NCBI GenBank assembly: GCA_020845895.1 | Contig: JADLEX010000017.1 | Location: forward strand, 1-64,000 | Direction of reading: 5' to 3' | Length of the DNA: 64,000 nucleotides | From: Deltaproteobacteria bacterium | Lineage (GTDB): Bacteria; Lernaellota; Lernaellaia; JACKCT01 | Shown here: piece after piece, positions 44,787 through 63,265 of the stretch | How the letters are laid out: each line of letters begins with the position of its first letter | Position numbering within the stretch: the stretch's first letter is position 1 | Program-made: the position numbers and the translations under genes | The notes under the pieces: model-generated | The model's input: the letters and a program-made list of their open reading frames with translations, nothing else | Told to the model about the DNA's origin: nothing | Databases searched by the model: none

Positions 44787-45422
44787 ATGAACGACTTTGT
44801 TTACCACGACGATCGCGACGGCCGGCGATGGAAGGTCGGCTGGCCCGCGTTTCGCGTCGAGCGCCCGCCGTGCATCGAGGACGAGGTCGCGCGCCTCATC
44901 GCCGATCGACGCATCGTCGGCGTGTTCTGGGGTCGAGGCGAGTTCGGTCCGCGCGCGCTCGGCCACCGCTCGATCTTCGCCGATCCTCGGTGGGAGGGCA
45001 TGCGCGACTACCTCAATGACCGTGTCAAACACCGCCAATGGTTTCGGCCCTTCGCGCCGATCGTGCTCGCGCATCGCGCGCCGGATTGGTTCGATCTGCC
45101 CGTCGAGAGCCCGCATATGCTGCTCGTCGGCGACGTGCGCGCGGACAAACGCGCGCTCGTTCCCTCGATCACGCACGTGGATGGCACCGCGCGCGTGCAG
45201 ACGATCCGCGTGGAGGATTCGCCGCGCGTTTACCGCGTGGTCGAGGCGTTCGAGCGGCTCACCGGTGTGCCGATGATCCTGAATACGAGCTTCAACGATC
45301 ACGGCGAGCCGATCGTGGAGAAGCCGATCGACGCCTTCGCGTGTTTCGCGCAGACGGAACTCGACGCCCTGGTGATCGGCCCGTGCCTGCTGCAAAAGAT
45401 CCGCCCGGAGGGCGCGCGATGA
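44787..45422 (+). CDS. stand-alone C-terminal half of a NodU/CmcH-type carbamoyltransferase
   Basis: A 211-residue protein corresponding to the Carbamoyltransf_C (YrdC-like) domain only. GRGEFGPRALGHRSIFADP (about 49-67) and RPFAPIV, then MILNTSFNDHGEPIVEKP are the family signatures. The N-terminal ASKHA half is missing here, but an N-terminal half without a C-domain is encoded by the very next gene, which starts within this stop codon. The two presumably assemble into one O-carbamoyltransferase active site. The half gene order is C before N, the reverse of the usual single polypeptide. No frameshift remnants are visible around it. Confidence 0.85.
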   Translation: MNDFVYHDDRDGRRWKVGWPAFRVERPPCIEDEVARLIADRRIVGVFWGRGEFGPRALGHRSIFADPRWEGMRDYLNDRVKHRQWFRPFAPIVLAHRAPDWFDLPVESPHMLLVGDVRADKRALVPSITHVDGTARVQTIRVEDSPRVYRVVEAFERLTGVPMILNTSFNDHGEPIVEKPIDAFACFAQTELDALVIGPCLLQKIRPEGAR

Positions 45423-48139
45423 CGCCGCGCTACGTCATCGGCGCGGTCGTGTCCGATCACGACAGCTCCGTGTGCCTGCTGCGCGACGGCGCGCTCGTGG
45501 CGTGCGTGAACGAGGAGCGCCTGTGTCGCGTGCGCAAGGGCGACCGGCGCAATTCGATTCGCCGTGCGCTCACGGCGGTGCTCGCCGAGGCGGGCATTCG
45601 CCTCGGCGACGTGTCGGCGATCTTCTGCGACACCGACCACTACTTCGCTCCCGATCACGTGCCGGTGCCGGTCTTCCCCGACTACCCCGATCCCGCGCGC
45701 ATCTACCAGATCACGCACCACGTCGGCCACGCGGCGAGCGCGTTTTTGCCAAGCCCGTTCGACGAGGCGGCGTTTCTGACAATCGACGCGTCGGGGGGAA
45801 TCGCGCCGATCGCGGAATCGGAGACCGGCAAGGCGTATTGGAGCATGACGGCGCGCGAGACGGATTTCATGGCGCGCGGATTTCGGGCGGCTCACGTGCA
45901 TCCGCATCTGACCGAACTGCTCTCCGCGCTTCCCGGCGGGGAGGCGCGCAACTATCCCGCCGAAAGCCTGACCGCGGGGACGGCCCGTCGTGGCGAGGCG
46001 ATGACCGAATTGTGGGACGACTTCGCGCAGTCGTCTCTCGGGTATTTCTATGCCCAGTGCAGCCACTTCCTCGACATGGAGGAAGGGCACTTCATGGGCC
46101 TCGCCAGCTACGGAAAGTCCGGGCCGATGCTGGACGCCATGCGCGAGGTGATTCGCCTCGAAGACGACGGACGCATCCGTATCGACGCGGACATGATGCA
46201 CTTTTGGCAAGACCGGCACGTGCTCGAGGACCCCGTTTCCATACGTCGCCTTTCGACCGCGTTCATGAAGACCTTCGGGCCGGGGCGCAAGTTCTTCGAG
46301 CCTATCACCGAGCGGCACATGGATTTCGCGCACGCCGCGCAGGCGCGCCTCGAAGAGGCGATGGTGCACGTCGCGAAACACCTGCGTCGCGTGAGCGGGA
46401 TGAAAAACCTCGTGCTCGCGGGCGGCGTGGCGCTCAACTCCGTGGGCAACGGCGTCGTTCTTCGCGAGGCGGGGTTCGACAACATCTTCATCCAGCCCGC
46501 CGCGTCGGATGACGGCCTCGCGCTGGGCTTCGCGCTCTTCGGTGACTACGTTCTGGACGAGTGCCGCGACGGCGCGGCATTCCGCATGGGCAGCGCGTTC
46601 CTCGGGCCCGACCGTGACGCCGAATGCGCGGCCTTCGTGGAGCAGCTCGAACAGGGGCTCGTCGAGATCGAGTACCTCGATTCGTTGCCGTTCACGTGGC
46701 ATGTGGACGTGCTGTGGAAAGGGCCGGGCGACCGCGATTTCGAACGTACGCGCATGCGTCATGCGGGAAGCGGCCGGCACGTCGCGCATCTGCCCATCGC
46801 GGCGCGGGGCGGTCTCGAATATCACTTCGAGGTTTACGCGGCCTCGCCTGACGACTACGAACGCGCGGCGGTCGAAAACGCAAGTCGTTCGGACGAAGGG
46901 TTATCCGCACATCCGAAAAACGGAAATGGTCACGCGGCGGACCCGCGACGACCGACCGATCCCTTCGAGATGTTTCTTTACGATCACCGCGATATCGCGG
47001 GAATTCTCGACGGTGAGCGCGCGTTCGTCGGGCCGGAGCAGGTCGTCATCGATCCGACCAACCGCTGCGACAACAACTGCCTCGCGTGCTGGACCTATTC
47101 GCCGCTGCTCGGCGACGCCGCCCCGCCGGAAGAGTGGTTCAGGCAGCAGATGTCGCCGGAGCTGATGCACCGGACGATTGAGGAACTCGCGGATTTGGGC
47201 ACGCGGCGAATTCGGTTCACGGGCGGCGGCGAGCCCTTCGTGCACCCGCAGATGATCGAGTTTCTCGAACACGTCAAATCGCGCGGCATGATCGCGTGCG
47301 TGACGACGAACTTCACGGCGCTGACGTCCGAAAAGGTCCGCCGCATGGCGGAAATCGGCGTGGACGAGGTCACGGCGAGCATCTGGGCGGGAACGCCGGA
47401 CATGTACGCGCGCAGTCATCCGAAAAAGACCGCGCGCACGTTCGAGAAGATCGAGGCGCTGCTCAAGGAATTTACGGCGTCGAAGCCCGGTCACGCGCGG
47501 CTGTACGTCGCCAACGTGCTATTCTCGATGAACTACGTCGAGACGCGCGAGATGTACCACCTCGCCAACCGGTGCGGTGCGGACGGCATCTACTTCGCAC
47601 TCGTCGATTCGGTCGCGACGCGCACCGACGGCCTGTTGCTCACGCCGCCGCACATTCGCGTGCTGCGCGAGCACCTTGCCGAGGTCAAGACGCGCGTGGA
47701 CGAACTCAACCGCACGCGCGCGGTGCCGTTCGTACTCGACAACTACCACGGCCTGATGCGACGGCTGGAGAGCATCGGCGCGACGCGCGGTGACTACGAC
47801 GCGCACGCGGTGGACGCGATTCCATGTTACGTCGGGTGGACGTTTTGCCGAATCACGCCGGACGGGCAGGTTGTCCCGTGTTGTCGCGGTGTGGACAAAC
47901 CGATGGGGAATCTGCACAAACAGACGTTCACCGAGATCTGGGCCGATCACCGTTATCGGGAGTTTCGTCGCATGGCGCTGCGCGAGAAAAAATCGCACCC
48001 GTATTTCGCAGAGATCGGCTGCCACCGGACCTGCGACAACCTGATGCACAACGAGACCGAACACGCGCGCTTCACGGCGCTCGGCGCCGAGGAGCGGGAG
48101 CACCTGGTGCGTTTTGTCGTGCGGGGCGAAGCGCGATGA
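45419..48139 (+). CDS. N-terminal half of a carbamoyltransferase fused to radical SAM/SPASM
   Basis: A 906-residue fusion. Residues 1-400 are the ASKHA-fold half of a NodU/CmcH carbamoyltransferase (SDHDSSVCLLRDG; VNEERL; the histidine cluster THHVGHAASAF; LVLAGGVALNSVGNG). About residues 420-490 form a strand-rich region (FTWHVDVLWKG) of unknown fold, followed by a linker with NGNGH. The radical SAM domain has C550, C554, C557 (CDNNCLAC), GGGEP, and a SPASM-type tail (AIPCYVGWTF, VVPCCRG, CHRTC). The carbamoyltransferase C-domain is supplied by the preceding gene (ATGA overlap). It uses carbamoyl phosphate and ATP by family analogy, probably to carbamoylate a hydroxyl of a sugar or similar. 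Confidence 0.85.
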   Translation: MTPRYVIGAVVSDHDSSVCLLRDGALVACVNEERLCRVRKGDRRNSIRRALTAVLAEAGIRLGDVSAIFCDTDHYFAPDHVPVPVFPDYPDPARIYQITHHVGHAASAFLPSPFDEAAFLTIDASGGIAPIAESETGKAYWSMTARETDFMARGFRAAHVHPHLTELLSALPGGEARNYPAESLTAGTARRGEAMTELWDDFAQSSLGYFYAQCSHFLDMEEGHFMGLASYGKSGPMLDAMREVIRLEDDGRIRIDADMMHFWQDRHVLEDPVSIRRLSTAFMKTFGPGRKFFEPITERHMDFAHAAQARLEEAMVHVAKHLRRVSGMKNLVLAGGVALNSVGNGVVLREAGFDNIFIQPAASDDGLALGFALFGDYVLDECRDGAAFRMGSAFLGPDRDAECAAFVEQLEQGLVEIEYLDSLPFTWHVDVLWKGPGDRDFERTRMRHAGSGRHVAHLPIAARGGLEYHFEVYAASPDDYERAAVENASRSDEGLSAHPKNGNGHAADPRRPTDPFEMFLYDHRDIAGILDGERAFVGPEQVVIDPTNRCDNNCLACWTYSPLLGDAAPPEEWFRQQMSPELMHRTIEELADLGTRRIRFTGGGEPFVHPQMIEFLEHVKSRGMIACVTTNFTALTSEKVRRMAEIGVDEVTASIWAGTPDMYARSHPKKTARTFEKIEALLKEFTASKPGHARLYVANVLFSMNYVETREMYHLANRCGADGIYFALVDSVATRTDGLLLTPPHIRVLREHLAEVKTRVDELNRTRAVPFVLDNYHGLMRRLESIGATRGDYDAHAVDAIPCYVGWTFCRITPDGQVVPCCRGVDKPMGNLHKQTFTEIWADHRYREFRRMALREKKSHPYFAEIGCHRTCDNLMHNETEHARFTALGAEEREHLVRFVVRGEAR

Positions 48140-49101
48140 CGCGGCGCGTACTCATCACCGGCGGCGCGGGCTTCATTGGCCATCATCTCGCGCGGCGCAT
48201 GCTCAGCGAGGGCTGGGCGGTGACGGTGATCGACAACGAGAGCACCGGTCGGCGCGAGGACGTCCCCGCCGAGTGCCGCTACTTCAAGGGCGACGTGCGA
48301 AACACCGACGACCTGCGCGAGGCGTTCGCGGACGCGCCGGACGCCGTTTTCCACATCGCCGGACAGGCGAGCAACATCAAGAGCTTCGATCGCCCGCAGC
48401 TCGACATGGACGTCAACGTGATCGGAACGATCAACGTCGTTGAGATGTGCCTGCTGCGTCGCGTGCCCAAGCTCGTGTACGCGGGTTCGATGACCGCGTA
48501 CGGGCCGATGGCGACGCTGCCCGTGGCGGAAGACGCGGTGCTTGCGCCGATTTCCTACTACGGCATCGGCAAGATGGCGGCGGAGCGATTCGTGCTCGCC
48601 ACCGCCTTGCGTCGCGATCTCGCCGCGCCCTTCGACGCGACCGTGTTTCGCATGTTCAACGTGTACGGTCCGGGCCAAAGCCTGACCAATCCTTACCAAG
48701 GTGTGCTGGCGATTTTCATCGGCCATGTGCTGCGTGGCGAGCCGTGCGTGATCCATGCCGACGGCGCGCAGTCGCGCGACTTCGTCTATATCGACGACGT
48801 GACCCGCGCGTGGGCCGCGGCGGCGACGCCGGGTGTGGCTTCGGGCGAGGCGGTCAACCTGGGCTCGGGGCAGGGCATCGCCGTGCGCGATCTGGTCACG
48901 CATGTCTGCCGCGTTCTCGGTCATGACGCGGATGCGTATCCGCGAACATTCGAACCGCGTCGACCGGGGGATCAGGATCATACGCGGGCCGACATCCGCA
49001 AAGCCGCCGCCGTGCTCGGATGGAAGCCGCAGGTGGGCTTTGAAGAAGGCCTGCGGCGAACGATCGACTGGGCTCGAAACGCCTCGGAACCCGTCGCCTG
49101 A
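48136..49101 (+). CDS. NAD-dependent sugar epimerase/dehydratase (extended SDR)
   Basis: A 321-residue extended short-chain dehydrogenase. It has the NAD site ITGGAGFIGHHLA, the catalytic Y-x-x-x-K in YYGIGKMAAERF with the upstream serine/threonine region YAGSMTAYG, and a C-terminal substrate domain with FNVYGPGQS and DFVYIDDV. The closest functional type is UDP-glucose 4-epimerase-like enzymes. The start overlaps the radical SAM fusion by 4 bases, so it is firmly part of the cluster and points to a nucleotide-sugar intermediate. Confidence 0.9.
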   Translation: MTRRVLITGGAGFIGHHLARRMLSEGWAVTVIDNESTGRREDVPAECRYFKGDVRNTDDLREAFADAPDAVFHIAGQASNIKSFDRPQLDMDVNVIGTINVVEMCLLRRVPKLVYAGSMTAYGPMATLPVAEDAVLAPISYYGIGKMAAERFVLATALRRDLAAPFDATVFRMFNVYGPGQSLTNPYQGVLAIFIGHVLRGEPCVIHADGAQSRDFVYIDDVTRAWAAAATPGVASGEAVNLGSGQGIAVRDLVTHVCRVLGHDADAYPRTFEPRRPGDQDHTRADIRKAAAVLGWKPQVGFEEGLRRTIDWARNASEPVA

Positions 49102-49223: not shown

Positions 49224-50906
49224 ATGAATATCCTGGGAATCTCGGACAACCACGGATCGGGGGCGGCCCTGGTTCGAAACGGGCGTCTCGTCGCGGCCGT
49301 CAACGAGGAGCGCATCGATCGCGAGAAAAACTCGCTGGCGTTCCCGTGGGGCGCCATCGACGAGGTCCTGCGCATGGAAGGGCTCGCGCCGCGAGACATC
49401 GACCTCGTCGTCGTCGGCAGCGTGTTCACGCCGATCTTTTTTCTGCGGCTGCTTCGGCCTTTTCATCAGTTCATCAAGCGGCGCGCCAGCCAGTTCGGCC
49501 TGCTCTTCGATCTGTACATCTACTACCAGATTCTGGTCCGCAACTCGCGGCTCGCCACGCGGATCGAAACGCTCCTGTCCCGCGCGCTCTTCGGTCGGCA
49601 GTTCACCAAGCGCGGTTTCGCGTGCGAGATCCACCTGCTCGACCACCACACCGCGCATGCGTACTCGGCCTTTCTCACGTCGCCGTTCGAACACGCGACG
49701 GTCATCACGGCCGACGCGATGGGCGACGGAGTTTCGGTCACCGTCGGAATTGCGCGCGAGGGGCGCATCGAGCGGATCTGGGCACAGGACGGACGCAGCG
49801 CGTTCAACCCGTACTACTCGCGCGTGACCGAGCTGCTCGGCTTTGTTCCGAATCGCCACGAGGGCAAAGTGACGGGCCTTGCAGCCTACGGCGACGCCGA
49901 GGTGCTTAGGTCCGACTTCGAGCGCGCCGCGCACTTTCGTGGGCCGGGCTTCAATTCCTTCCGTTTCTGGCATCCCGGTTTGAAACACTACGGATTCTTT
50001 GGGAGAATCGGGCATTATTCACGGGAATTGATCGCCGCCGGCTGCCAGAGGAACCTCGAGGTTCAGATGGGCGCGTTTGTGGACCACTGGGTCCGCAAGA
50101 CGGGTGTGCCCGATGTCGTGCTCGCGGGCGGGATCTTCGAGAACGTCAAGCTCAATCAGCGCATCCACGAACTCGACACGGTGCGCGCCGTGTACATCTT
50201 CCCCAATATGTCGGACGGCGGGCTCGGCGCGGGCGCGGCGCTGGCGTTCGGCGCGAATCGCCCGCGCCCCGTGGATACGATGTACCTCGGCCCCGCCTAC
50301 GATCGCGACCGTATCGAACGCGCGGCGGCGGCGTCGGGACTTGTCGTTGAACGGCCCGAAGACCGGCCGGATCACGTCGCCGATCTGCTCGCGGCCGGTC
50401 ATGTGATCGCGCGATTCGACGGGGCGATGGAGTATGGTCCGCGCGCTCTGGGCAACCGGAGCATTCTCTACCGCCCCGACGACCCGAAGGTGAACGACTG
50501 GCTGAACGAGCGGCTGCGCCGGACGGAGTTTATGCCGTTCGCGCCGGTGGTGCGGCGGGAACGCGCGGCGGATTGCTTCGTCGGCGTCGACGGTGCCGAG
50601 TTCACGGCGCGCTTCATGAACATCTGTTTTGACTGCACGGACCTGATGAAACGCCTGTGCCCGGGTGTCGTGCACGTGGACGGCACGGCGCGCCCGCAGA
50701 TTCTGACGCGCGAGGAAAACCCCGCTTACTACGACCTGCTGCAGCGGTTCGAGGAGAAGACGGGGTTGCCCGCGCTCATCAACACGAGCTTCAACATGCA
50801 CGAGGAACCGATCGTCATGACGCCGGAAGACGCCGTGCGCGCATTCGTCGCCGCGCGGTTGCCTTATCTGGTGCTCGGCCACCTCGTGGTGAAAGGGATC
50901 GCGTGA
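49224..50906 (+). CDS. full-length NodU/CmcH-family carbamoyltransferase
   Basis: A 560-residue two-domain enzyme. The N-terminal ASKHA half shows ILGISDNHGSGAALVRNG, VNEERID, LDHHTAHAYSAF and VLAGGIFENVKLNQ; the C-terminal half has MEYGPRALGNRSIL, FMPFAPVV and LINTSFNMHEEPIV. Relatives such as NodU, TobZ and CmcH carbamoylate sugar or cephem hydroxyls using carbamoyl phosphate and ATP. This is the intact counterpart of the split enzyme encoded 1-4 kb upstream. Length is normal for the family. It shares a GTGA overlap with the following radical SAM gene. Confidence 0.93.
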   Translation: MNILGISDNHGSGAALVRNGRLVAAVNEERIDREKNSLAFPWGAIDEVLRMEGLAPRDIDLVVVGSVFTPIFFLRLLRPFHQFIKRRASQFGLLFDLYIYYQILVRNSRLATRIETLLSRALFGRQFTKRGFACEIHLLDHHTAHAYSAFLTSPFEHATVITADAMGDGVSVTVGIAREGRIERIWAQDGRSAFNPYYSRVTELLGFVPNRHEGKVTGLAAYGDAEVLRSDFERAAHFRGPGFNSFRFWHPGLKHYGFFGRIGHYSRELIAAGCQRNLEVQMGAFVDHWVRKTGVPDVVLAGGIFENVKLNQRIHELDTVRAVYIFPNMSDGGLGAGAALAFGANRPRPVDTMYLGPAYDRDRIERAAAASGLVVERPEDRPDHVADLLAAGHVIARFDGAMEYGPRALGNRSILYRPDDPKVNDWLNERLRRTEFMPFAPVVRRERAADCFVGVDGAEFTARFMNICFDCTDLMKRLCPGVVHVDGTARPQILTREENPAYYDLLQRFEEKTGLPALINTSFNMHEEPIVMTPEDAVRAFVAARLPYLVLGHLVVKGIA

Positions 50907-52498
50907 CGGATTCGCCGCGCGAAGGCGCGCCCGACACGCGGCGCGACCGGGCGCCGGACATCTTGCTCTTCTCGCCGCCGCCGTGGCTGGTCTCAGGGCC
51001 GCCGCTGGGTCTGGCGGCGTTGTCGGCGTTTCTGCGCGCCGAGGGGTGGGGCGTTCGCGTTCTGGACGGAAATGCCAAGACCTATCGGCGCAGTTCCTCC
51101 GCTTATCACAAGCTGTGGCTGTGGGATTACAGCGCGTTTTGGGAGGACGCCGAGCGCGTCGAGCGAGCGTTCGGCGATGTGCTGCGCGCACTTGCGGAGG
51201 ATGCGGCGGCGATCGGTGCGCCGGTCGTGGGTGTCAACGTGGTGCACCGCAAGGAGGCCGCCGCGGCGATCTTTCTGCGCCGGTTGCGCGAGTTGCAGCC
51301 CGACGTTCTTGTGTTCGTCGGCGGCCCCGGCGCGGGCTGGCGGGAATCGCGCGACCATATGCGTCACGTCGCCGCGAACCTGATTGACGGCTTCGTGGTG
51401 GGCGAGGGCGAGATCACGTGTCACGAACTGCTGTCGCGCATCGGCCGGGGAGAATCGCCCGACAACCTGCCGGGATTCGTGACCGGCGACGAATCGGGCG
51501 AGAGCCGATTTCGCCCCGGACCGTTTCTGACCGATATGGGTCGGCTTCCCGTGCCCGACTTCGGCGACTTTGACATGACCGAGTACGATATCGATTCGCT
51601 CGTCGTCGAGTGGAATCGGGGGTGCGTCGCGCGGTGCACCTATTGCAGCATCAATGAATACTGGAACGCGTTCCGCTTCAAGTCGGCGGAGGCGGTCGCC
51701 ACGGAGTTGGAGACGCTCGCCACGCGGCACGGCATTCGGCGTTTCACCGTGGTCGATCCCATGGTGAACGGGAATCCCGACCATTTGGAACGCGTTTGCG
51801 ACGCCATCATCGCGCGCGGCATATCCGTCGAGTGGTCCGCGGGGTTTTCGCCCAACAAGACCGTGTCGGCCGAGGTGTTCCGCAAATTGCGCGCCGCCGG
51901 GTGCTGGAAGCTCGAATTCGGCGTCGATTCCGGTTCGGACCGCATCCTGAAGAAGATGGGAAAACGATATCGGGCCGACGCCGCCGGACAAATGATTGAC
52001 GACGCTCATAACGCCGGAATCGAGGTCATGCTCTATTTGATCGTCGGATTCCCCGGCGAGACCGACGAAACGGTGGACGAAACCATCGCCTGGCTTCGCC
52101 GCCACGCGCGCGCCATCGATATGGTGCGCTCGGTGTCGAGCCTGACGATCGAAGACGGGACAGCCGTGGAACGCCGCGCGGAACTGTTCGGCATCGACGA
52201 ACTCGACCGGTCGGACACGCATTGGCGTGACGACTGGAGCGCGGGCGAGGATACGCCGGCGATTCGCGCCGCCCGTGTCGAGCGCGTGCTTGCGACGATC
52301 CGCGAACTCGGGATCACGATCGAGTCGGAGCTCGTCGCCGACGGGTCGGCGTTGGCCGCGGGGCCGGACGCCTGGGCGGATACGGTGGTGGACGAGGAGT
52401 TTTTGCGCAATCACGAACGGCAGCGTCAGGCCCATGGCGGGTCCATGATGTGTTCGTCGTTCCCCGGCGGGCAGGCGGATGTTCAAGAACGCGCGTGA
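50903..52498 (+). CDS. B12-binding-domain radical SAM protein
   Basis: A 531-residue protein starting at GTG within the preceding stop. Residues about 18-190 form a cobalamin-binding-like Rossmann domain (LLFSPPPWLVSGPPLGLAAL, FVGGPGAG, VVGEGE) without the DxHxxG histidine motif. The radical SAM domain has CVARCTYCS in EWNRGCVARC, VDPMVNG, FGVDSGSDRILKKMGK and LYLIVGFPGET. Such enzymes often methylate or rearrange unactivated carbons. It is a close paralogue of module 1 of the next, giant protein (shared EWNRGC, CxIN, FRxKSA, VDPMVNG). The next gene begins inside its last 20 bases. Confidence 0.9.
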   Translation: MTDSPREGAPDTRRDRAPDILLFSPPPWLVSGPPLGLAALSAFLRAEGWGVRVLDGNAKTYRRSSSAYHKLWLWDYSAFWEDAERVERAFGDVLRALAEDAAAIGAPVVGVNVVHRKEAAAAIFLRRLRELQPDVLVFVGGPGAGWRESRDHMRHVAANLIDGFVVGEGEITCHELLSRIGRGESPDNLPGFVTGDESGESRFRPGPFLTDMGRLPVPDFGDFDMTEYDIDSLVVEWNRGCVARCTYCSINEYWNAFRFKSAEAVATELETLATRHGIRRFTVVDPMVNGNPDHLERVCDAIIARGISVEWSAGFSPNKTVSAEVFRKLRAAGCWKLEFGVDSGSDRILKKMGKRYRADAAGQMIDDAHNAGIEVMLYLIVGFPGETDETVDETIAWLRRHARAIDMVRSVSSLTIEDGTAVERRAELFGIDELDRSDTHWRDDWSAGEDTPAIRAARVERVLATIRELGITIESELVADGSALAAGPDAWADTVVDEEFLRNHERQRQAHGGSMMCSSFPGGQADVQERA

Positions 52499-55400
52499 CG
52501 CCGGATCGCTCGCATTCCCCGAGCACGTGATGATCCAGACCACGTCGCGGTGTAACTCCGCGTGCGTGATTTGCCCGTGGCCCGATACGGCGAAGGCGCA
52601 GGCGCAGGGCGACATGGACGACGCGCTTTTCGCGTCGCTCGTGGATGAGCTGAAGACCTATCCAAATCTCACGCGCGTGATGATGTACCTGATGAACGAG
52701 CCGCTGCTCGACCGGCGGATGCCGGAACGCATCGACCGCGTGCGCCGCGCGTTGCCGAACGCGGAGATCTATCTCCTCACGAACGGCATCCTGCTCGACC
52801 GCGAACTCGGGGACCGGATCATCGATTCCGGTTTGTCGTGGATTGGCCTGTCGATCCACGCGATCGACAACGACACTTATAAGAACATCACGGGGCGAGG
52901 TGATTTCGGGAAAATCCGCGACCGGCTCGAAACGTTCGTGGATCGCGCGATGGCGGCACGGGGCGGCGAGTTCGTTCAGGTCAACATCACCAAGGTGCGC
53001 CCGCTCATCGACGACGAGGAATTCGAGCGCGCGGCGAAGCACTGGCGCGATCTGGGCGTGCGCCGCGTGGACGTGGATCAGGGCTACATCAGCCGCGCGG
53101 GCAACGTGGACGTCTGGGGTCACGTGCAGGTCGATGTTCGCCGGACATCGGGATGCGGGACGCTGTGGGCCTACAAAATGGCGCACATTCTCTTCGACGG
53201 CGACGTGCTGCCGTGCTGCATGGATTGGCGACGGTCGAAGGTGCTGGGCAACATCCGCGAGGCCGGATCGCTCCTCGATGTCTGGCGTGGCCGCGGTCGA
53301 AACGCCTTCCTCGACGACCTTGGCTCGGGCGAGGAACTCCCCGAGGGATTCTTGTGTTCTCGCTGCGAGGACGTCATCCCCGCCGAGGGCGTTCACGTTG
53401 ACACGCGAGCGCCGGTGCCGATCCCGACCGATCAGGTGTTCTCCCGCGTGAGGTTCGTGTCGTCCGTTGTCGAAACGCAATCCGGTACGACCCCGGCTGC
53501 CGCGACGGTCGCCACGAGAAATGGCCCATCGCGCCCGGTCGCAGCGCACACTTCGACCTCGAAACTTCACACGCTCCTGTTCAATCCGCCGCCGTGGCTG
53601 GTACATGCGCCGCCGCTGGGCATCGCGTCCATCGCGGGATACTTGAAGGCGCGCGGGCGCCGCGTGACCGTGATGGACGCCAACGTACGCGTCTATCACG
53701 ACGCGCATGTCGCGGATCGCAAACTTTGGCAGTGGGAGCACGGCGAAATCTGGAGCGACGCGGCGTCGGCCGAACGACTCTTCGGCGAGAGCCTGCGTCG
53801 TCTCGCGCGCGAAGCGGCTGAAGCCGAGGTCGATGTGGTCGGCGTCAGTCTCGTGTCGCGCAAGGAAGTCCCCACGGCGATTTTCGTGCGCGAACTTCGC
53901 CGCCTGCGCCCCGGCGTGCATGTGTTCGTGGGCGGACCGAACACGAGCCACCCCGATCTGCGCGCGCACATCCGCACGATCCTCGGCGATCTGTTCGACG
54001 GGTTCCTCTATGGCGAGGGAGAGGCGGCATTCGAGAACTTGCTGGAACGCCTCGAATCCGGCGCGCCGCGGGACGGCCTGCCCGGGCTCGTCCTCTTCAA
54101 CAGGACGACCGACGAAGAAATCGTGAACGAGGCGGCGGAACTGCCGAATTTGGACGCGCTCACGGTACCGGATTTCGATGGCTTCGACCTGTCACTCTAT
54201 GAATCACCCGCGCTCGTGGTCGAGTGGAATCGCGGGTGCGTCGGTAAGTGCACGTTCTGCAACATCAACGACCTGTGGAAGAGCTTCCGCTACAAATCCG
54301 CGGGCCACGTCGTGAACGAACTGGCGACGCTGACCGACCGGTACAGCACGCGGGATTTCTCCATCGTCGACCCCATGGTGAACGGCGACGTCCCGACGCT
54401 GGAGGCGATCTGCGACGGGATCATCGCGCGCGGGCTCGATGTTCGCTGGGCTGCGGGGATTTCGCCGAATCGCGAGGTCGGCCCCGATTTGTTCCGCAAG
54501 ATGCGCCAGGCCGGTTGCTACCGGTTGGAATTCGGCGTGGAGAGCGGATCGGACGAAATCCTGCGGCGCATGGGCAAGGATTATCGCTCGCCGCTGGCCG
54601 CTCAGATGCTCAAGGACGCGCACGACGCGGGAATCATGGTGGTGCTCTACCTCATCGTCGGGTTCCCGCGCGAGACGCAAATCGAGTTTGAGGAGACCCT
54701 CGCGTTTCTGGAGCAAAACGCCGCACACATCGATCTGATCCGCAGCGTCAATGGCCTTGTCATCATCCACGGCACGCCGATCGAGCGAAAACCGGGCAGC
54801 TTCGGAATCGCCGAGCCGAACCGCCACGAGCCGGGATGGACCACGCACTGGTCATCGGACGAGAACACGCCGGAAGTGCGCGCGGCACGCGTGCGCACGG
54901 TGGTCAAACGCCTCCGGGAACTGGGGATCGCGGTGGAATTCCAGAACACGGAAGAAGTGATGCCCCACGAGATGCGGTTCGCCGAAAAGGCGGACCGGTT
55001 GACGCGGCGGCTCGCGGCGATCGCGCAGGACTGGGGCGATCTGACCGATCGAATGAATACCCGCATCGGCGAAAACGGCGGTGCGGTGCGCGGGCGCGGG
55101 CAGCTCGCCCTGGTGCTATGCCCCGTGTGGGGCGTGGACAGCCCGCCGCTGGGACTCGCCACCGTCGCGGGCTATATGCGCGCGCGCGGTTACGACGTGG
55201 CGACGATCGACTTCAACATCGAGCTGTTCGCGCGCTCGCCCGAGCACCTCAAGCCGTTCTTCGAGGAGAACAGTTTCCGCCACTGGACTGATGAGGAGAG
55301 CTGCGCGCGGCTCGTTCGCGCCTTCGACCGCGACATCGAAAACCTCGTCGCGCGGATCGTCGATCTGAATCGCCGCGTCATCGGGTTCACCGTGTATTCG

Positions 55401-58400
55401 GCGAATCGCCTGTTCACGATCGAGGTCATGCGTCGCATCAAGGATCGCGATCCCGGCAAGGTGCTCGTGGTCGGCGGGCGCGGGGTGCAGACGTCGAACG
55501 AGCGGCTGCTTTTCCCGCCGGACATCGCCGACTATTTTGTGGTGGGCGAGGGCGAGGAAGCGCTCGTCGAGATCATGAACGCGGTCTTCGACGGACGCGA
55601 CGCCGGCGCGATCGCGGGTGTGGACCGATTCGTGGGGGCCACCCTCGCGGGCGCTTCGCCGCGCGGGCGCATCGCCGATCTCACGACCGTCCCGCCCCCT
55701 GCTTACGACCAGTTGCCGCTCGACCTGTATCGCAACGACGAGATTCCCGTGCAGTTTTCGCGCGGGTGCGTCGCGCATTGCACCTTCTGCAACGACAACA
55801 ACAAGAACACGGGCTTTCGCACGCGCCCGGGCGAGCATATGGCGCGCGAGGTCGCGCACCTGGCGCGTTCGCTCGGGCGAAAGCGGTTCCGCTTCAACGA
55901 TCTGCTCATCAACGGCGACCTCGAGGTGCTGGAGCAGATGTGCGACACGCTGATTGAGGAGAACCTCGACATCCGCTGGATCGCGCTCGCGCAACCTCGC
56001 GGCGACATGAGCGACGAACTGGTGCGCAAGATCGCGCACGCCGGGTGCTACACGCTCAACCTCGGCGTCGAACACGCCTCGGACCGCGTCCTCAAGCGCA
56101 TGGGCAAGGGCTTTCGCGTCGTCGACATGGAGCGCGCGCTCGGCCAGATCCGGTCCGCGGGCATCAACACGATGATCAACTTCATCGTCGGATTCCCCGG
56201 CGAGGAGGAAGAGGACGTCGACGCGGCGATCGAGTTCGTGCGCCGCAACCGCGCAAACATTTGCGGCGTCACGTCGGTCAATTCCTTCATCCTGCTCGAG
56301 GATTCTCCGATCGAGAAAAACGCGGCGAAGATGGGGATCACGTGGCCCGATTTCGCCACCCGTGATGTGAAATGGGTGTTGGGATCGAACACACCCGAGG
56401 TGCGAGAACGGCGTCTCTCCCGATTCCTCAACTTCCTCGAATCGGAGAAGATTCCCATCTGCGTGACGAATTCGCAGGAGCGCGCCGCGGATGTTTCGGT
56501 GCTGCCGCCCGCGGAAGCGGAGCCAGCGCCGGCGCAGGCGGCGCTCGTGTCGGTGCACACGTCGGGATGCGGAGATCACGACGACGGATTCGATCCCGCG
56601 AAGGGTGAGCCGCGCTTCGAGGTCGTGCCGCATTCGGCGACCGACGTGCTGCTCATCAAGTGTCCCGTCTGGGGCGTCGATGTCGCGCCGCTCGCGATCG
56701 CCTACCTCGCGCAGTGCTGCCGCGAGGCGGGGTTCTCGGTGCAGGCGCTCGATTTGAATGTGAAGATCCACAACCGCTGCCACGATCGCGGCCTGTGGCG
56801 GATGGATCGGTACAAGGAGTGGGCCGACCCGGCGCATTTCCCACTTACGTATGCGTCGCTGTGGGAGCTCACGGAACACTACCTGAAGCAGATCGCCGCG
56901 CACCCCGCGAAGGTCATCGGGTTCTCGACGTGCACCTCGAACTGGATGTTCACGATCGAGACGACGAAGCGACTGAAAGCGATGTCGCCGGACAAGGTGA
57001 TCGTGCTCGGCGGGCCGGGCGTGACCAACAGCTTCGAGGCCGAACAGCTCCATCCCGACCAAGCGGACTACGTGTTCTTCGGCGAGGGCGATCTCGGGTT
57101 TCCGACGCTGGTCGAAGCCGTGAAAAACGGCCGCGAACCGGAGGGCATCAAGGGTCTCATCCGCGTGGGATCCGGCTTCACCTACGCGACGGTCGAAAAA
57201 GCCATCGTGGAGCGCGGCATCACGATTCCGAATCCCACGATGGAAGAGTTGAACCTGTGGGAATACTCGGGGACTGCCGTTCCGCTGCTTGGTAGTCGAG
57301 GATGCGTGCGCCGTTGCACCTTCTGCAACGACCACCACATCTACCAGAAGTATCGCCACCGCCCCGCCAAGGAAATCTTCGAGGACATGGAGTGGCACGT
57401 CCGCAATCGCGGCGCGGTGCATTTCACGTTTCTCGACCTGCTCATGAACGGGCACATGAAGGTGCTCGAGGAGTTCTGCGACCTCATCATCGCGGCGGGC
57501 TATCAGGTGGCGTGGGGCGGGCAGGCGATCATCCGCAAAGAGATGACGCCGGAGATCCTGGGCAAAATGGCCAAGGCTGGCTGCAAGAGCATCGTGTACG
57601 GCATGGAGAGCTTCAACGACAAGGTCCTGCGCCTCATGCGCAAGTACTACACGCAGGACCTCGCGAAGCGCGTGCTGACCGACACGATCGCCGCCGGTAT
57701 CGAGCCGATCATCAACATCATCTGCGGGTTCCCGGGCGAGGGCATCGAGGAATTCGAGGACACGTACAACTTCATCCGCGACCACCGCGAGATCATCGGG
57801 CAGGTCGCGTCGGTCTCTCCGTGCCTCATCAACCTGGGCAGCGAACTGTTCGACCGATGGGAAGAGTTCGGCGTCGTGTTCCCCGAAAACGACGGCAGCG
57901 TGAAGTGGTACACGCAGGACGGCACGAACACGTACGAGGAACGCCTGCGCCGCATGATGCTCGTGACCGAGTTGCTCGCGGGTCGCGACATGAACATCCA
58001 CACCGTGAACATCTATGACAAGGGCGATCGCGACGTGCGCCTCGCGCGAGACGCGGTTGCGCGCGAAGCCGCGAAGAACGGGAAGTCGAGTGACGCGGTG
58101 ATTGCGCCGGACGCGCAAAAGCCGCGGACGGAGCACGCACGGCCCGAACGCACGGATGCAGTGCTCGCATTGATGCCGCCGTGGGGGGTGAACTTTCCTC
58201 CGTTGGGGATCGCGTCGCTAGCGACCGCCACGCGCGAACGCGGCCATGGCGTGCTTGTGCGCGATCTCAATGTCGAGGCGTGGGCGTCGTGCGGGGAATA
58301 CCTGCAAACCTGGTGGGAGCCGGAGAATCTGAAGTACTGGGCCCCGGGCGGGCGGCTCAACGAGATCAGCGCGTTCCTGGTGCCGCTCGTCTCCGAATTT

Positions 58401-59564
58401 GTGAACGAGGTCGCCGCCGCCAAGCCTTTAGTCGTGGGGCTTTCGACGAACGAGTCGAACATGCCCTTTGTCCTGCGCGTAGCGCGCCGGATTCGCGAGC
58501 GGTTGCCGAAAACGCTGATCGTCCTCGGCGGGCCGGGCATTGTCTGGCCGGTCGATCGCGATAAGTGGACGAACGAGGTGTTCGACGCGTACCTGATCGG
58601 CGAGGGCGAGGAGCACTTCCCCGCGCTGATCGAGGCGATCAAGGCCGGAACCGATCCGCGCGAGGTCGCCGGGGTCGAGTGGCGCGGTGACGAACGGCGC
58701 GTCATACCCGGCGCGGATCTGATCGTGCGCGATCTCGATGCACTGCCGACTCCGCTTTTCGATGACTTTCCGCTCGATCTTTACCGCACGCCGAAGATTC
58801 CGCTGACGATCGGGCGCGGCTGCCCGAACCGCTGCACGTTCTGCAATGACCCGAAGATCACGCCGAAGTATCGCTACCTTTCGGCTGAGAAGGTTGTGGC
58901 CCAAATCCGGCTGTATCAGGAGCGCTACCGCGCGCACGAGTTCCAGTTCAACGATCTCATCCTGAACGCGCACATCAAAAACGTCCGGCGCTTCGCGCAA
59001 CTCGTGATCGAAGCGGGACTGCACATCGCGTATTCCAGCCAGGCGATCGCGAAAAAGAACCTCGATCAGCCGACGCTCGATCTGCTGGCGAAATCCGGCT
59101 GCACCAGCCTGGTGTTCGGCATCGAGAGCTTCTCCGACGCGGTGCTCGCCGCGATGAAGAAAGGCTACACCGCAGATGAAGCTCGCGGGGTGCTGGAGCG
59201 GTGCAAGGCGGCGGGCATTCAGGTCATCGTCAACCTCATTGTCGGCTTCCCCGGCGAGACGGATCTGGAACTCACCGAGACGATGGAGTTCCTGCGCCGA
59301 AACCGACATCTGATCGACGGCATCTCGGCGCTCTCGACCTGCATCGTGACGGCGCAATCCGATCTGGAGCGACACCCGGACAAGTACGGAATCGTGCTGC
59401 CGAAACCCGAGCATTGGTGCCAGTGGTACACGGTCGACGGCAAGAACACCTACGAGATCCGGGCAGAGCGCCTCGCGCGACTGACGACGCTGACCGAAGA
59501 CCTCGGCCTGTCCCGGAACATGACGAACCGCTACCTCGAGGTCGTCCAGGCCGAGGGGGCGTGA
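52479..59564 (+). CDS. 2361-residue protein with five radical SAM domains (one SPASM type + four B12-binding modules)
   Basis: One uninterrupted frame. Residues 1-310: radical SAM/SPASM domain with C25, C29, C32 (CNSACVIC) and cysteine-rich tail (DVLPCCMDW, FLCSRC). Then four tandem modules of about 510 residues, each a B12-binding-like Rossmann part plus radical SAM part: module 1 from about 361 (cysteines 587/591/594), module 2 from about 875 (1097/1101/1104), module 3 from about 1388 (1609/1613/1616), module 4 from about 1893 (2115/2119/2122). Each has GEGE, RGCxxxCTFCN and GFPxE motifs; none has DxHxxG. Linkers are Ala/Pro/Glu-rich. The pattern implies tandem duplication. It may process one substrate through several radical steps, or be a multi-enzyme scaffold. 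Substrate unknown. Confidence 0.92.
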   Translation: MFKNARDAGSLAFPEHVMIQTTSRCNSACVICPWPDTAKAQAQGDMDDALFASLVDELKTYPNLTRVMMYLMNEPLLDRRMPERIDRVRRALPNAEIYLLTNGILLDRELGDRIIDSGLSWIGLSIHAIDNDTYKNITGRGDFGKIRDRLETFVDRAMAARGGEFVQVNITKVRPLIDDEEFERAAKHWRDLGVRRVDVDQGYISRAGNVDVWGHVQVDVRRTSGCGTLWAYKMAHILFDGDVLPCCMDWRRSKVLGNIREAGSLLDVWRGRGRNAFLDDLGSGEELPEGFLCSRCEDVIPAEGVHVDTRAPVPIPTDQVFSRVRFVSSVVETQSGTTPAAATVATRNGPSRPVAAHTSTSKLHTLLFNPPPWLVHAPPLGIASIAGYLKARGRRVTVMDANVRVYHDAHVADRKLWQWEHGEIWSDAASAERLFGESLRRLAREAAEAEVDVVGVSLVSRKEVPTAIFVRELRRLRPGVHVFVGGPNTSHPDLRAHIRTILGDLFDGFLYGEGEAAFENLLERLESGAPRDGLPGLVLFNRTTDEEIVNEAAELPNLDALTVPDFDGFDLSLYESPALVVEWNRGCVGKCTFCNINDLWKSFRYKSAGHVVNELATLTDRYSTRDFSIVDPMVNGDVPTLEAICDGIIARGLDVRWAAGISPNREVGPDLFRKMRQAGCYRLEFGVESGSDEILRRMGKDYRSPLAAQMLKDAHDAGIMVVLYLIVGFPRETQIEFEETLAFLEQNAAHIDLIRSVNGLVIIHGTPIERKPGSFGIAEPNRHEPGWTTHWSSDENTPEVRAARVRTVVKRLRELGIAVEFQNTEEVMPHEMRFAEKADRLTRRLAAIAQDWGDLTDRMNTRIGENGGAVRGRGQLALVLCPVWGVDSPPLGLATVAGYMRARGYDVATIDFNIELFARSPEHLKPFFEENSFRHWTDEESCARLVRAFDRDIENLVARIVDLNRRVIGFTVYSANRLFTIEVMRRIKDRDPGKVLVVGGRGVQTSNERLLFPPDIADYFVVGEGEEALVEIMNAVFDGRDAGAIAGVDRFVGATLAGASPRGRIADLTTVPPPAYDQLPLDLYRNDEIPVQFSRGCVAHCTFCNDNNKNTGFRTRPGEHMAREVAHLARSLGRKRFRFNDLLINGDLEVLEQMCDTLIEENLDIRWIALAQPRGDMSDELVRKIAHAGCYTLNLGVEHASDRVLKRMGKGFRVVDMERALGQIRSAGINTMINFIVGFPGEEEEDVDAAIEFVRRNRANICGVTSVNSFILLEDSPIEKNAAKMGITWPDFATRDVKWVLGSNTPEVRERRLSRFLNFLESEKIPICVTNSQERAADVSVLPPAEAEPAPAQAALVSVHTSGCGDHDDGFDPAKGEPRFEVVPHSATDVLLIKCPVWGVDVAPLAIAYLAQCCREAGFSVQALDLNVKIHNRCHDRGLWRMDRYKEWADPAHFPLTYASLWELTEHYLKQIAAHPAKVIGFSTCTSNWMFTIETTKRLKAMSPDKVIVLGGPGVTNSFEAEQLHPDQADYVFFGEGDLGFPTLVEAVKNGREPEGIKGLIRVGSGFTYATVEKAIVERGITIPNPTMEELNLWEYSGTAVPLLGSRGCVRRCTFCNDHHIYQKYRHRPAKEIFEDMEWHVRNRGAVHFTFLDLLMNGHMKVLEEFCDLIIAAGYQVAWGGQAIIRKEMTPEILGKMAKAGCKSIVYGMESFNDKVLRLMRKYYTQDLAKRVLTDTIAAGIEPIINIICGFPGEGIEEFEDTYNFIRDHREIIGQVASVSPCLINLGSELFDRWEEFGVVFPENDGSVKWYTQDGTNTYEERLRRMMLVTELLAGRDMNIHTVNIYDKGDRDVRLARDAVAREAAKNGKSSDAVIAPDAQKPRTEHARPERTDAVLALMPPWGVNFPPLGIASLATATRERGHGVLVRDLNVEAWASCGEYLQTWWEPENLKYWAPGGRLNEISAFLVPLVSEFVNEVAAAKPLVVGLSTNESNMPFVLRVARRIRERLPKTLIVLGGPGIVWPVDRDKWTNEVFDAYLIGEGEEHFPALIEAIKAGTDPREVAGVEWRGDERRVIPGADLIVRDLDALPTPLFDDFPLDLYRTPKIPLTIGRGCPNRCTFCNDPKITPKYRYLSAEKVVAQIRLYQERYRAHEFQFNDLILNAHIKNVRRFAQLVIEAGLHIAYSSQAIAKKNLDQPTLDLLAKSGCTSLVFGIESFSDAVLAAMKKGYTADEARGVLERCKAAGIQVIVNLIVGFPGETDLELTETMEFLRRNRHLIDGISALSTCIVTAQSDLERHPDKYGIVLPKPEHWCQWYTVDGKNTYEIRAERLARLTTLTEDLGLSRNMTNRYLEVVQAEGA

Positions 59565-59607: not shown

Positions 59608-60255
59608 ATGAACCGGATGCAACACCTCCGACGCACCCGTCTCTACCTCGTTCGCCACGGCGCGACCCCGTACAACCTCGTCCATCAGATCGCCGGATCG
59701 ACGGACGTGGAACTCGGCGACCAGGGCCGCGCGGATCTCGCTCGGCTTCGCGAGGCGCTGGACGCGGTCGCGCTGGACGCGGTGGTCGCCAGTCCGCAAA
59801 GACGCGCGGCGGAGACGGCCCGGATTTTGGTTGGGGGGCGCGGCCTGCCCGTCGTATGGGCGCCGGAACTTCGCGAACGCGATTTCGGACGATGGGAAGG
59901 TAGGACGTTTCAGGACATCATCGACGAGCAGCCCGACGGCGGCGCGTCGATCATGCGCGGACCTTTCGTCGCGAAATTCGACGTGGCGGAGAAGGACGGA
60001 GTCTTTGTTCCTCGGGTGCGTCGGGCAATCTTCGAGAAAATCATCGAACGTTTTCGGGACCGGGACGTGCTCGTCGTCAGCCACGCCGGCGTGCTGATGA
60101 TGGCGACGGCGATCCTGCTCGGGCTCGACCCCACGACGGACTTCGCGACGTTTCGTATCGACAACGGCGGCGTCACGCGCATCGACTGGTACGACGGCGT
60201 ACCGCACGTGGGATATCTCAATCGGCTTGTGAGCGTGTCGGGCGGCGTGTTATGA
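59608..60255 (+). CDS. histidine phosphatase superfamily protein (phosphoglycerate mutase-like)
   Basis: A 215-residue phosphatase. The catalytic histidine is H17 in LVRHGATPYN; SPQRRAAETA and ERDFGRWEGRTF give the phosphate pocket and VVSHAGVLMM the second histidine. Family members include alpha-ribazole phosphatase (CobC), phosphoserine phosphatase and phosphoglycerate mutase. The B12-type enzymes encoded upstream make CobC tempting, but nothing in the sequence decides it. It begins 43 bases after the giant radical SAM gene, so it may be the last gene of that unit. Confidence 0.85.
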   Translation: MNRMQHLRRTRLYLVRHGATPYNLVHQIAGSTDVELGDQGRADLARLREALDAVALDAVVASPQRRAAETARILVGGRGLPVVWAPELRERDFGRWEGRTFQDIIDEQPDGGASIMRGPFVAKFDVAEKDGVFVPRVRRAIFEKIIERFRDRDVLVVSHAGVLMMATAILLGLDPTTDFATFRIDNGGVTRIDWYDGVPHVGYLNRLVSVSGGVL

Positions 60256-61378: not shown

Positions 61379-63265
61379 TCACACACCTTCGTCCTCGCCC
61401 TCGCGCGGCGCGTAGTAGTCCTGCGGCACCTCGGTGAGCAGGCAGCCCGGCGTGTCGCCGATCAGGTCCGTGCGGCCGATCTCCTTGAGCGCCTCATACA
61501 CGAAGTGCGCGTTCTCCGGACGGTAGTAGTTCATCAGCGCGCGCTGGAGCTTGCGTTCGCGGAACGAAAGCGGGCGATACATGTGGTCTTCGTCCACGGG
61601 GTCCTGCCCCGTGTACGCCATGCACGCGCTCGCCGTGCCGGGCGCCGGAACGAAATCGAGGATGTAATTCGACTTCAGCCCGAACTCGTCCATGAACATG
61701 GACGTCTCGAGCGCGTCGTCCATCGTCGACCCCGGATGCGACGCCATGAAGAACGGCACGACCTCGGTGTCGTCGAGCATTTCAAACTTCTCGAAGACCT
61801 TGTGCACGCGCTCGAAGAACCTCCGTGTCGTACCCGGCTGGTATTTGCGGATGCGGCGCGTGACGGCGTCGTTGACGTGCAGCGGCGACGGCTTGAATTT
61901 GCCGTGCGTGAATCGCGTGAGGAGCAGTTCCTCGAGCTCGGGCCCGTGCGCCTCGGTTTCGAGCAGGTCGTAGCGGAAGTTCGACGAGATGTACGCTTCG
62001 TCCACGCCCTCGAGGTCGAGCACGTTCTTGAGCAGTTGCAGATACGGTCCCTGGTCGGCGTTGAGTTTCTCGCACTTGTCCGGGAACGTGCACGACGCGC
62101 GCTGGCACGATTCGCCGCCGCCGTTGGCGTCGGTCATCTTGGAGCACGTCAGCCGGTACGCGTTGCCCACGGGCCCACCGATGTTGCTGATGACGTTTCT
62201 GAAGTAGTGGTAGCCGGTCATCGTGCGCGCTTCCTCGAGGATCGATTCCTCCGAGCGCGAGGTCACGTATCGGCCCTGGTAGGCGTGGTGCGTGCAGAAG
62301 CTGCATCCGGCCGGGCAGCCTCGATGCGACACCAGCGAAAATTTGATCGTCTCGAAGTTGGGAATCGGCCCCTGCTTCTTGTACTTCGGGTGCGGCGTGC
62401 GCACGAACGGCAACGTGAACAGCTCGTCGAGTTCCGCCGTGGAGAGCGGGATCTGCGGCGGATTGACGACGATGGTGCCCGCGGCATGCTCCTGAGTCAT
62501 CGGTTTGGCGAAGTGCGGATCGACGTTGCGCAAATCGATGCGGGACATTTGGTAGAACGCCGCGCGGTCGGCGGCGACGTCCTCGAACGCGGGCAGGGGA
62601 ATCGCGTCACGGACGCTGTTCGCCGTCTCGCCGAGGGGCAGCCGCCACACCACGCCGCGAATGTCGCGGCACTGTTCGACGCCGCCGCCGTGTTTGAAGA
62701 TCGCCGCGATCTCGCGAAACGCCTTCTCGCTCTGGCCGTACGCGATCAGGTCGGCCTCGCCCTCGATCAGAACGCTCGGCTTCACCTCGTCGTTGTGGAA
62801 GTCGTAGTGCGCGAGGCGGCGCAGCGTGGACTCCATGCCGAACTGGATGACCGGGCAGTCGGGATACGCCTGCTTGGCGCACCGGGCGTACACGATCGCC
62901 GCGTGATCGGGTCGTTTGCCCGGCAGGCGCCCCGCGCTGTAAAAGTCCTGCTTTCGCGGACGCTTGGTCGGCGAATACTTGTTCATCATCGAGTCCAGGA
63001 CGCCGGCCGTGACGATGAAAAACGCGTTGGGCCGACCGAGCTGCATGAAGTCGATCAGCCGGATGTCGTTGGGCTGCGCAATGATGCCGACGCGCATGCC
63101 CTCCGACTCGAGCAGGCGCGCGATCATGGCGTCGTCGTGCGCGGGATGATCGATGTAGGCGTCGCCGGTGATGAGCACGACGTCGCAGGTGTCCCACTCG
63201 AGGCGCTGCATCTCGTAGCGGGACATGGGCAGGAACAGTTTTCTTCGATCCATAAACTCCATCAT
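61379..63265 (-). CDS. YgiQ family radical SAM protein (UPF0313)
   Basis: A 628-residue radical SAM protein. The family N-terminus LFLPMSRYEMQRLEWDTCDVV-type segment and the block DAYIDHPAHD, then a radical SAM domain with C317, C321, C324 in HRGCPAGCSFCTHH, followed by NIGGPVGNAY are diagnostic. The C-terminal part after about residue 560 corresponds to the DUF3362 region. Function is not established in any organism. A GAGGAAAGG ribosome site precedes the ATG. It follows thiD on the same strand after 38 bases and is closed by a clear terminator. It is not obviously linked to the radical SAM cluster, which is on the other strand. Confidence 0.95.
   Translation of the reverse strand: MMEFMDRRKLFLPMSRYEMQRLEWDTCDVVLITGDAYIDHPAHDDAMIARLLESEGMRVGIIAQPNDIRLIDFMQLGRPNAFFIVTAGVLDSMMNKYSPTKRPRKQDFYSAGRLPGKRPDHAAIVYARCAKQAYPDCPVIQFGMESTLRRLAHYDFHNDEVKPSVLIEGEADLIAYGQSEKAFREIAAIFKHGGGVEQCRDIRGVVWRLPLGETANSVRDAIPLPAFEDVAADRAAFYQMSRIDLRNVDPHFAKPMTQEHAAGTIVVNPPQIPLSTAELDELFTLPFVRTPHPKYKKQGPIPNFETIKFSLVSHRGCPAGCSFCTHHAYQGRYVTSRSEESILEEARTMTGYHYFRNVISNIGGPVGNAYRLTCSKMTDANGGGESCQRASCTFPDKCEKLNADQGPYLQLLKNVLDLEGVDEAYISSNFRYDLLETEAHGPELEELLLTRFTHGKFKPSPLHVNDAVTRRIRKYQPGTTRRFFERVHKVFEKFEMLDDTEVVPFFMASHPGSTMDDALETSMFMDEFGLKSNYILDFVPAPGTASACMAYTGQDPVDEDHMYRPLSFRERKLQRALMNYYRPENAHFVYEALKEIGRTDLIGDTPGCLLTEVPQDYYAPREGEDEGV

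Follow-up and report, generated by a model that had tools for sequence, protein, structure and literature searches.

A single polypeptide with one SPASM-type and four cobalamin-type radical SAM modules in the bacterial class Lernaellaia

One gene encoding five radical SAM modules

Radical S-adenosylmethionine (SAM) enzymes form a very large reservoir of difficult C-H chemistry in nature and, to our knowledge, those described work as one- or two-domain proteins. The window analyzed here, a stretch of 64,000 nucleotides (contig JADLEX010000017.1, positions 1 to 64,000 of the forward strand, assembly GCA_020845895.1; class Lernaellaia of the phylum Lernaellota), holds a gene for a polypeptide with five radical SAM modules, A to E (Table 1). 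The genome, hereafter G000, comprises 4.98 Mb in 171 contigs and is 99.5% complete. The gene starts with ATG and forms one frame of 2361 amino acids (aa) with zero internal stops, and Pfam detected in its product five stretches of Radical_SAM (PF04055; 3.5e-102), four of B12-binding (PF02310; 7.8e-59) and one SPASM domain scoring 35.5 bits against a cut-off of 21.5. An initial annotation of this DNA had described a single 7.1-kb frame with five CxxxCxxC clusters, the first SPASM-type and the next four each preceded by a B12-binding domain, evenly spaced at about 510 residues. This description was borne out: the domain search returned one radical SAM/SPASM and four B12-binding/radical SAM units, the first cysteines lie exactly where they had been placed, and the distances between them are 562 residues (A to B), then 510, 512, and 506.

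A CxxxCxxC motif within a Radical_SAM barrel, the mark of the superfamily, was found in all five modules. Module A combines it with the SPASM domain and auxiliary-cluster cysteines (Cys 226, 246/247, 293, and 296) of SPASM-domain radical SAM enzymes, and each of modules B to E has the N-terminal B12-binding Rossmann domain and radical SAM barrel of class-1 cobalamin-dependent enzymes, followed by a small C-terminal domain. Since the four B12-type modules are only about 30% identical to one another (28 to 35% versus module E), a collapsed repeat or recent repeat expansion was rejected.

Table 1. Coordinates of the five-module gene, its parts, its neighbors, and the four-module fusion of the same genome (window positions unless a locus is named)
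Feature	Position	Strand	Remarks
Five-module radical SAM fusion gene	52479..59564	+	ORF, Pfam, orthologues in 7 genomes
Module A, radical SAM/SPASM	52479..53393	+	CNSACVIC at residue 25; nearest solved relative BtrN
SPASM domain of module A	53166..53366	+	PF13186, residues 230-296
Module B, B12-binding Rossmann + radical SAM	53550..55058	+	CVGKCTFC at residue 587
Module C, B12-binding + radical SAM	55080..56588	+	CVAHCTFC at residue 1097
Module D, B12-binding + radical SAM	56610..58118	+	CVRRCTFC at residue 1609
Module E, B12-binding + radical SAM	58140..59561	+	CPNRCTFC at residue 2115
Stand-alone cobalamin-type radical SAM, 531 aa	50903..52498	+	module B duplicate, 50% identical
O-carbamoyltransferase, NodU/GdmN/TobZ type	49224..50906	+	both domains; HHxxHAxSA and GPRALG motifs intact
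NDP-sugar epimerase/dehydratase (SDR)	48136..49101	+	adjoins cluster in G000-G003
Carbamoyltransferase N-domain + radical SAM/SPASM fusion, 906 aa	45419..48139	+	
Carbamoyltransferase C-domain, separate gene upstream of N-domain gene	44787..45422	+	
Glycosyltransferase (GT4-like) + radical SAM/SPASM fusion, 968 aa	41873..44779	+	
Histidine-phosphatase-superfamily enzyme, CobC-like below family cut-off	59608..60255	+	kept downstream in G002
Four-module fusion of G000 (G000:C158)	L011:6584-12775		

The same architecture was found in every one of the seven class genomes compared (G000 plus six others, G001 to G006), as one open frame in six of them. The orthologues are 43 to 61% identical and match the window protein in module content and order, with stop-free frames of 2363 to 2606 aa, stop to stop, in G001, G003, G004, G005, and G006. 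In G002 (L034), all five modules are present in order but in pieces, consistent with frameshift errors. The CxxxCxxC motifs and the SPASM cysteines of module A are kept in all six intact orthologues, and no five-module protein was found outside the class in a survey of 386 genomes. An assembly chimera or collapsed repeat could be suspected, given a draft assembly and internally similar modules. However, the six other genomes have orthologues, the modules have diverged to about 30% identity, and they group by position in trees (see below), so that the fusion is not an assembly artefact, and we regard the chance of such an error as negligible. Neither a collapse nor modules that are always separate genes, the outcomes that the initial annotation had named as fatal to it, was seen among these stop-free orthologues.

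Module history and related fusions

In maximum likelihood trees, modules B, C, D, and E each formed their own clade across genomes with 98 to 100% bootstrap, the module B clade also including the stand-alone duplicate. Within the module clades, G000 to G002 grouped together, as did G004 to G006, with G003 outside. These position-specific clades indicate that the fusion arose before the class diversified, with modules already specialized by then, and that each position has, to judge from the trees, retained its own specialized module.

A second fusion, with three B12-binding/radical SAM modules and a C-terminal radical SAM/SPASM module, is present in every class member. Intact copies are about 1945 to 2106 aa long, those of G002 and G005 being broken or shorter, and in G000 and G003 the gene lies beside one for an ArnT-like PMT. 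Its module 3 fell in a group with module B, and a grouping of its module 1 with D and E, recovered in a first tree (87/88), was absent from a larger one. Members of a second phylum carry fusions of their own: a three-module B12-binding/radical SAM protein of 1509 to 1583 aa in G383, G388, and G389 (broken in G383), and a protein of 1518 to 1540 aa with one B12-binding/radical SAM and two radical SAM/SPASM modules in G389 and G383. The two genes are adjacent in G389, and at L077:6136-15175 (also L078, L079, and L080) the two adjacent fusion genes of L077 together encode six radical SAM domains. The modules of these fusions grouped with C, with D/E (a weaker link) and with module 3 of the four-module fusion, suggesting that related module types were joined on more than one occasion.

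Apparent two-module fusions in other genomes, seen as open frames of about 1000 to 1450 aa, were not accepted as such: the eight loci checked all proved to be adjacent separate genes, which either shared a frame interrupted by a stop or lay in overlapping frames. Arrays of closely spaced, separate B12-binding/radical SAM genes, several of them in-frame with single stops between, occur at L096:2718-8502 and L103:576-5041, and in-frame neighbors split by a stop suggest one way in which fusions may have come about. In G275, an unrelated low-GC genome (30%), one B12-binding/radical SAM and one radical SAM/SPASM module were seen joined in a 1014-aa protein (L054:7956-10997). The genome of the window is itself very rich in radical SAM proteins, with 59 stretches matching the fusion modules.

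Predicted fold, cobalt face, and linkers

Module E was modeled with AlphaFold2 using seven sequences as input, giving a predicted local distance difference test score (pLDDT) of 84.4 and a predicted template modeling score (pTM) of 0.83. The best matches of the model in the PDB were TsrM, OxsB, AprD4, CysS, MgmA, and TokK, and module E is accordingly predicted by the model to have the class-1 cobalamin radical SAM fold. The match to AprD4 with bound paromamine had template modeling (TM) scores of 0.68/0.71 at 17% identity.

In solved enzymes of this kind, the loop after strand 3 puts a residue below the cobalt, namely Asn186 in OxsB, Arg69 in TsrM, and Trp76 in TokK (PMC13331322); the equivalent position in CysS is Trp75 (PMC12846815). 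In our alignments, the CysS/TokK position is occupied in module B by Arg461, an arginine invariant in the seven genomes, in module C by Ala or Pro, two residues after an invariant Tyr, and in modules D and E by Ser or Gly. At the position of OxsB Asn186, module E has Asn in six of the seven genomes (Asn1991 here). Because the predicted cobalt-face residues differ by module position, the four putative cobalt sites are probably not equivalent.

The same residues bear on whether modules B to E would bind cobalamin at all. They might instead be cobalamin-free, their Rossmann domain a vestige and their activity that of AprD4-like dehydratases or of some other radical enzyme: AprD4 is one of the best matches by structure, and the Trp of the CysS/TokK cobalt face aligned in none of the four modules. 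On the other hand, the B12-binding domain scores are significant, and the OxsB-type Asn in module E and the invariant Arg in module B are suggestive of a kept cobalt face, and loss of the cofactor seems unlikely.

The linkers between modules measure 23 to 118 aa and vary in length among genomes, and a tandem model of D and E was of low overall confidence (pTM 0.50), with a disordered linker. In these models the fusion looks like beads on a string, i.e., separately folded modules joined by flexible linkers.

Gene neighborhood, proposed function, and nearest known systems

The O-carbamoyltransferase gene, whose product resembles GdmN, NovN, and TobZ, lies directly 5' of the fusion gene in all seven genomes, with the stand-alone module B duplicate inserted between them in G000 and G001, the only class genomes where that duplicate was found. 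In the window, the 3' end of the duplicate overlaps the start of the fusion gene by 20 nt. A carbamoyltransferase N-domain with radical SAM/SPASM is present in G000 to G003, the two being fused in G000, G001, and G003; at 44787-48139 this carbamoyltransferase is split in permuted order, the C-domain gene coming first, and the same holds for G001 and G003. The glycosyltransferase-radical SAM/SPASM fusion has a long Pro/Ala/Gly-rich linker and also occurs in G001 and G002. On the other side of the cluster, it is adjoined by a YgiQ-family radical SAM protein (61379-63265, minus strand; TIGR03904 above cut-off).

A role in modifying membrane lipids or molecules of the lipid A type was considered, since in G000 the cluster follows the genes for BamA, LpxD, LpxA, LpxI, LpxB, MsbA, and KdtA, and the cobalamin-type modules are weakly similar to the lipid-biosynthesis B12-binding/radical SAM families HpnJ, HpnR, and TIGR04072. 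The best single-module scores for these families were 113.7, 73.7, and 108.9, against cut-offs of 577.6, 650, and 360, and the carbamoyltransferase gene is preceded on its 5' side by one for a polyA/CCA polymerase, rather than by a lipid gene, in G004, G005, and G006. A lipid substrate is quite unlikely on this evidence. Within the same upstream run, LpxB (lipid A disaccharide synthase; 33622-35475) carries a fused N-terminal PAP2 phosphatase domain.

We tentatively propose, at a little short of even confidence, that the fusion tailors a building block, carbamoylated and probably sugar-like, in several C-methylation or redox steps. We infer cobalamin binding, the reaction types, a shared substrate and its class, and any channelling from the domains, models, and neighbors described above. 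A BtrN-like radical SAM/SPASM module followed by four class-1 cobalamin-type modules would act in succession on one shared building block by C-methylation, oxidation or rearrangement, module A performing one SPASM-type redox step and modules B to E four cobalamin-type methylations or rearrangements. The block would probably be a sugar or an aminocyclitol-like unit, part of a secreted metabolite or of a glycoconjugate of the cell envelope, its carbamoyl group added by the partner O-carbamoyltransferase, and the fusion would hold five oxygen-sensitive, slow enzymes close together in a fixed ratio. The sugar or aminocyclitol lead comes from the nearness of module A to BtrN, the match to paromamine-bound AprD4, the TobZ/GdmN-like partner, and, in some genomes, the epimerase and the glycosyltransferase-radical SAM neighbors.

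Several observations weigh against this proposal. The O-carbamoyltransferase is the sole universal neighbor, with the epimerase in four of the seven genomes, and a GDSL hydrolase lies 3' of the fusion gene in G003, G005, and G006. The cobalamin synthase CobS was found within the class in G000 and G002 only, so the other members would have to import cobamide, and AprD4, whose fold is common with that of module E, is not known to use cobalamin. No defined module-module interface was present in the D-E tandem model. Finally, in NCBIfam every cobalamin-type module is nearest to a C-methyltransferase subfamily acting on ribosomally synthesized and post-translationally modified peptides (RiPPs), far below its cut-off.

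The last point raises the question of whether the fusion matures a RiPP, its modules C-methylating or cross-linking residues of a precursor peptide. All four cobalamin-type modules scored best against TIGR03975, the RiPP radical SAM C-methyltransferase family, at 148.9, 138.2, 135.8, and 169.2, yet the cut-off is 281.85; a whole-protein score of 569 was rejected as a family match, being the mere sum over four modules. Pfam found no PqqD/RRE-type recognition domain in the fusion, the neighboring genes point to sugar, carbamoyl, and envelope chemistry, and no precursor was recognized at the locus, where short open reading frames were not searched systematically. We hold a RiPP role to be decidedly improbable.

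The lack of a predicted interface, together with the disordered linkers of variable length, would also fit modules that work independently, each on a different substrate or on free intermediates and without channelling, the fusion serving only co-expression and fixed stoichiometry. Such an arrangement is in keeping with the stand-alone relatives of the modules (50903-52498; L051), the tandem in-frame but separate B12-binding/radical SAM genes of relatives, and the second phylum's own three-module arrangement. Against it, the order of five modules is class-wide, with all modules retained alongside the same carbamoyltransferase partner, which suggests one pathway, and we consider full independence rather unlikely. 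The initial annotation had also suggested an assembly line. In the carrier-based sense of nonribosomal peptide and polyketide synthases this found no support, as Pfam showed no carrier (PP-binding) domains in the fusion or in the scanned neighboring genes of the window, and the D-E model shows no defined module packing.

Returning to the tailoring enzyme, a bolder version, which we hold to be somewhat less likely, is a single-chain radical "production line" in which a carbamoylated block would pass through five active sites with position-tuned cobalamin sites to give a multiply C-methylated or rearranged product ancestral to the class; a second product would come from the four-module sister enzyme. 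A class-wide five-module fusion with four- and three-module cousins would show radical chemistry organized in multi-catalytic chains. It offers a fixed set of steps for testing and a route to C-methylated, carbamoylated envelope or natural-product chemistry.

Among known systems, TsrM, OxsB, CysS, TokK, and MgmA are like modules B to E in having a B12-binding Rossmann domain, a radical SAM barrel, and a strand-3 loop under the cobalt, but each has a single catalytic domain, whereas here four are fused with differing predicted cobalt-face residues. AprD4, the apramycin radical SAM diol dehydratase, is likewise a single module, and its cobalamin status may differ from that of module E. BtrN is the nearest of the solved structures to module A (2.7e-14), which keeps one auxiliary-cluster cysteine set; only the N-terminal part aligns, however, and module A is fused to four more radical SAM modules. 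The universal neighbor shares both domains and intact motifs with the NodU/CmcH/TobZ O-carbamoyltransferases and is a separate gene. FbiC, the FO synthase of F420 biosynthesis, is a fusion of CofG and CofH and so has two radical SAM domains in one polypeptide; in contrast to the present fusion, it has neither B12-binding nor SPASM domains and performs other chemistry. In the open-access literature, which leaves most subscription papers outside, a two-domain F420-pathway protein was the only relevant radical SAM fusion, and nothing carrying more than two radical SAM domains was found, in line with the initial annotation, which knew of no described enzyme of this architecture. As the domains are known, no single module from B to E reaches a curated NCBIfam cut-off, and the literature held no case with more than two domains, the architecture is new and its component enzymes are of known kinds, and it belongs to a larger set of radical SAM fusions in at least two phyla.

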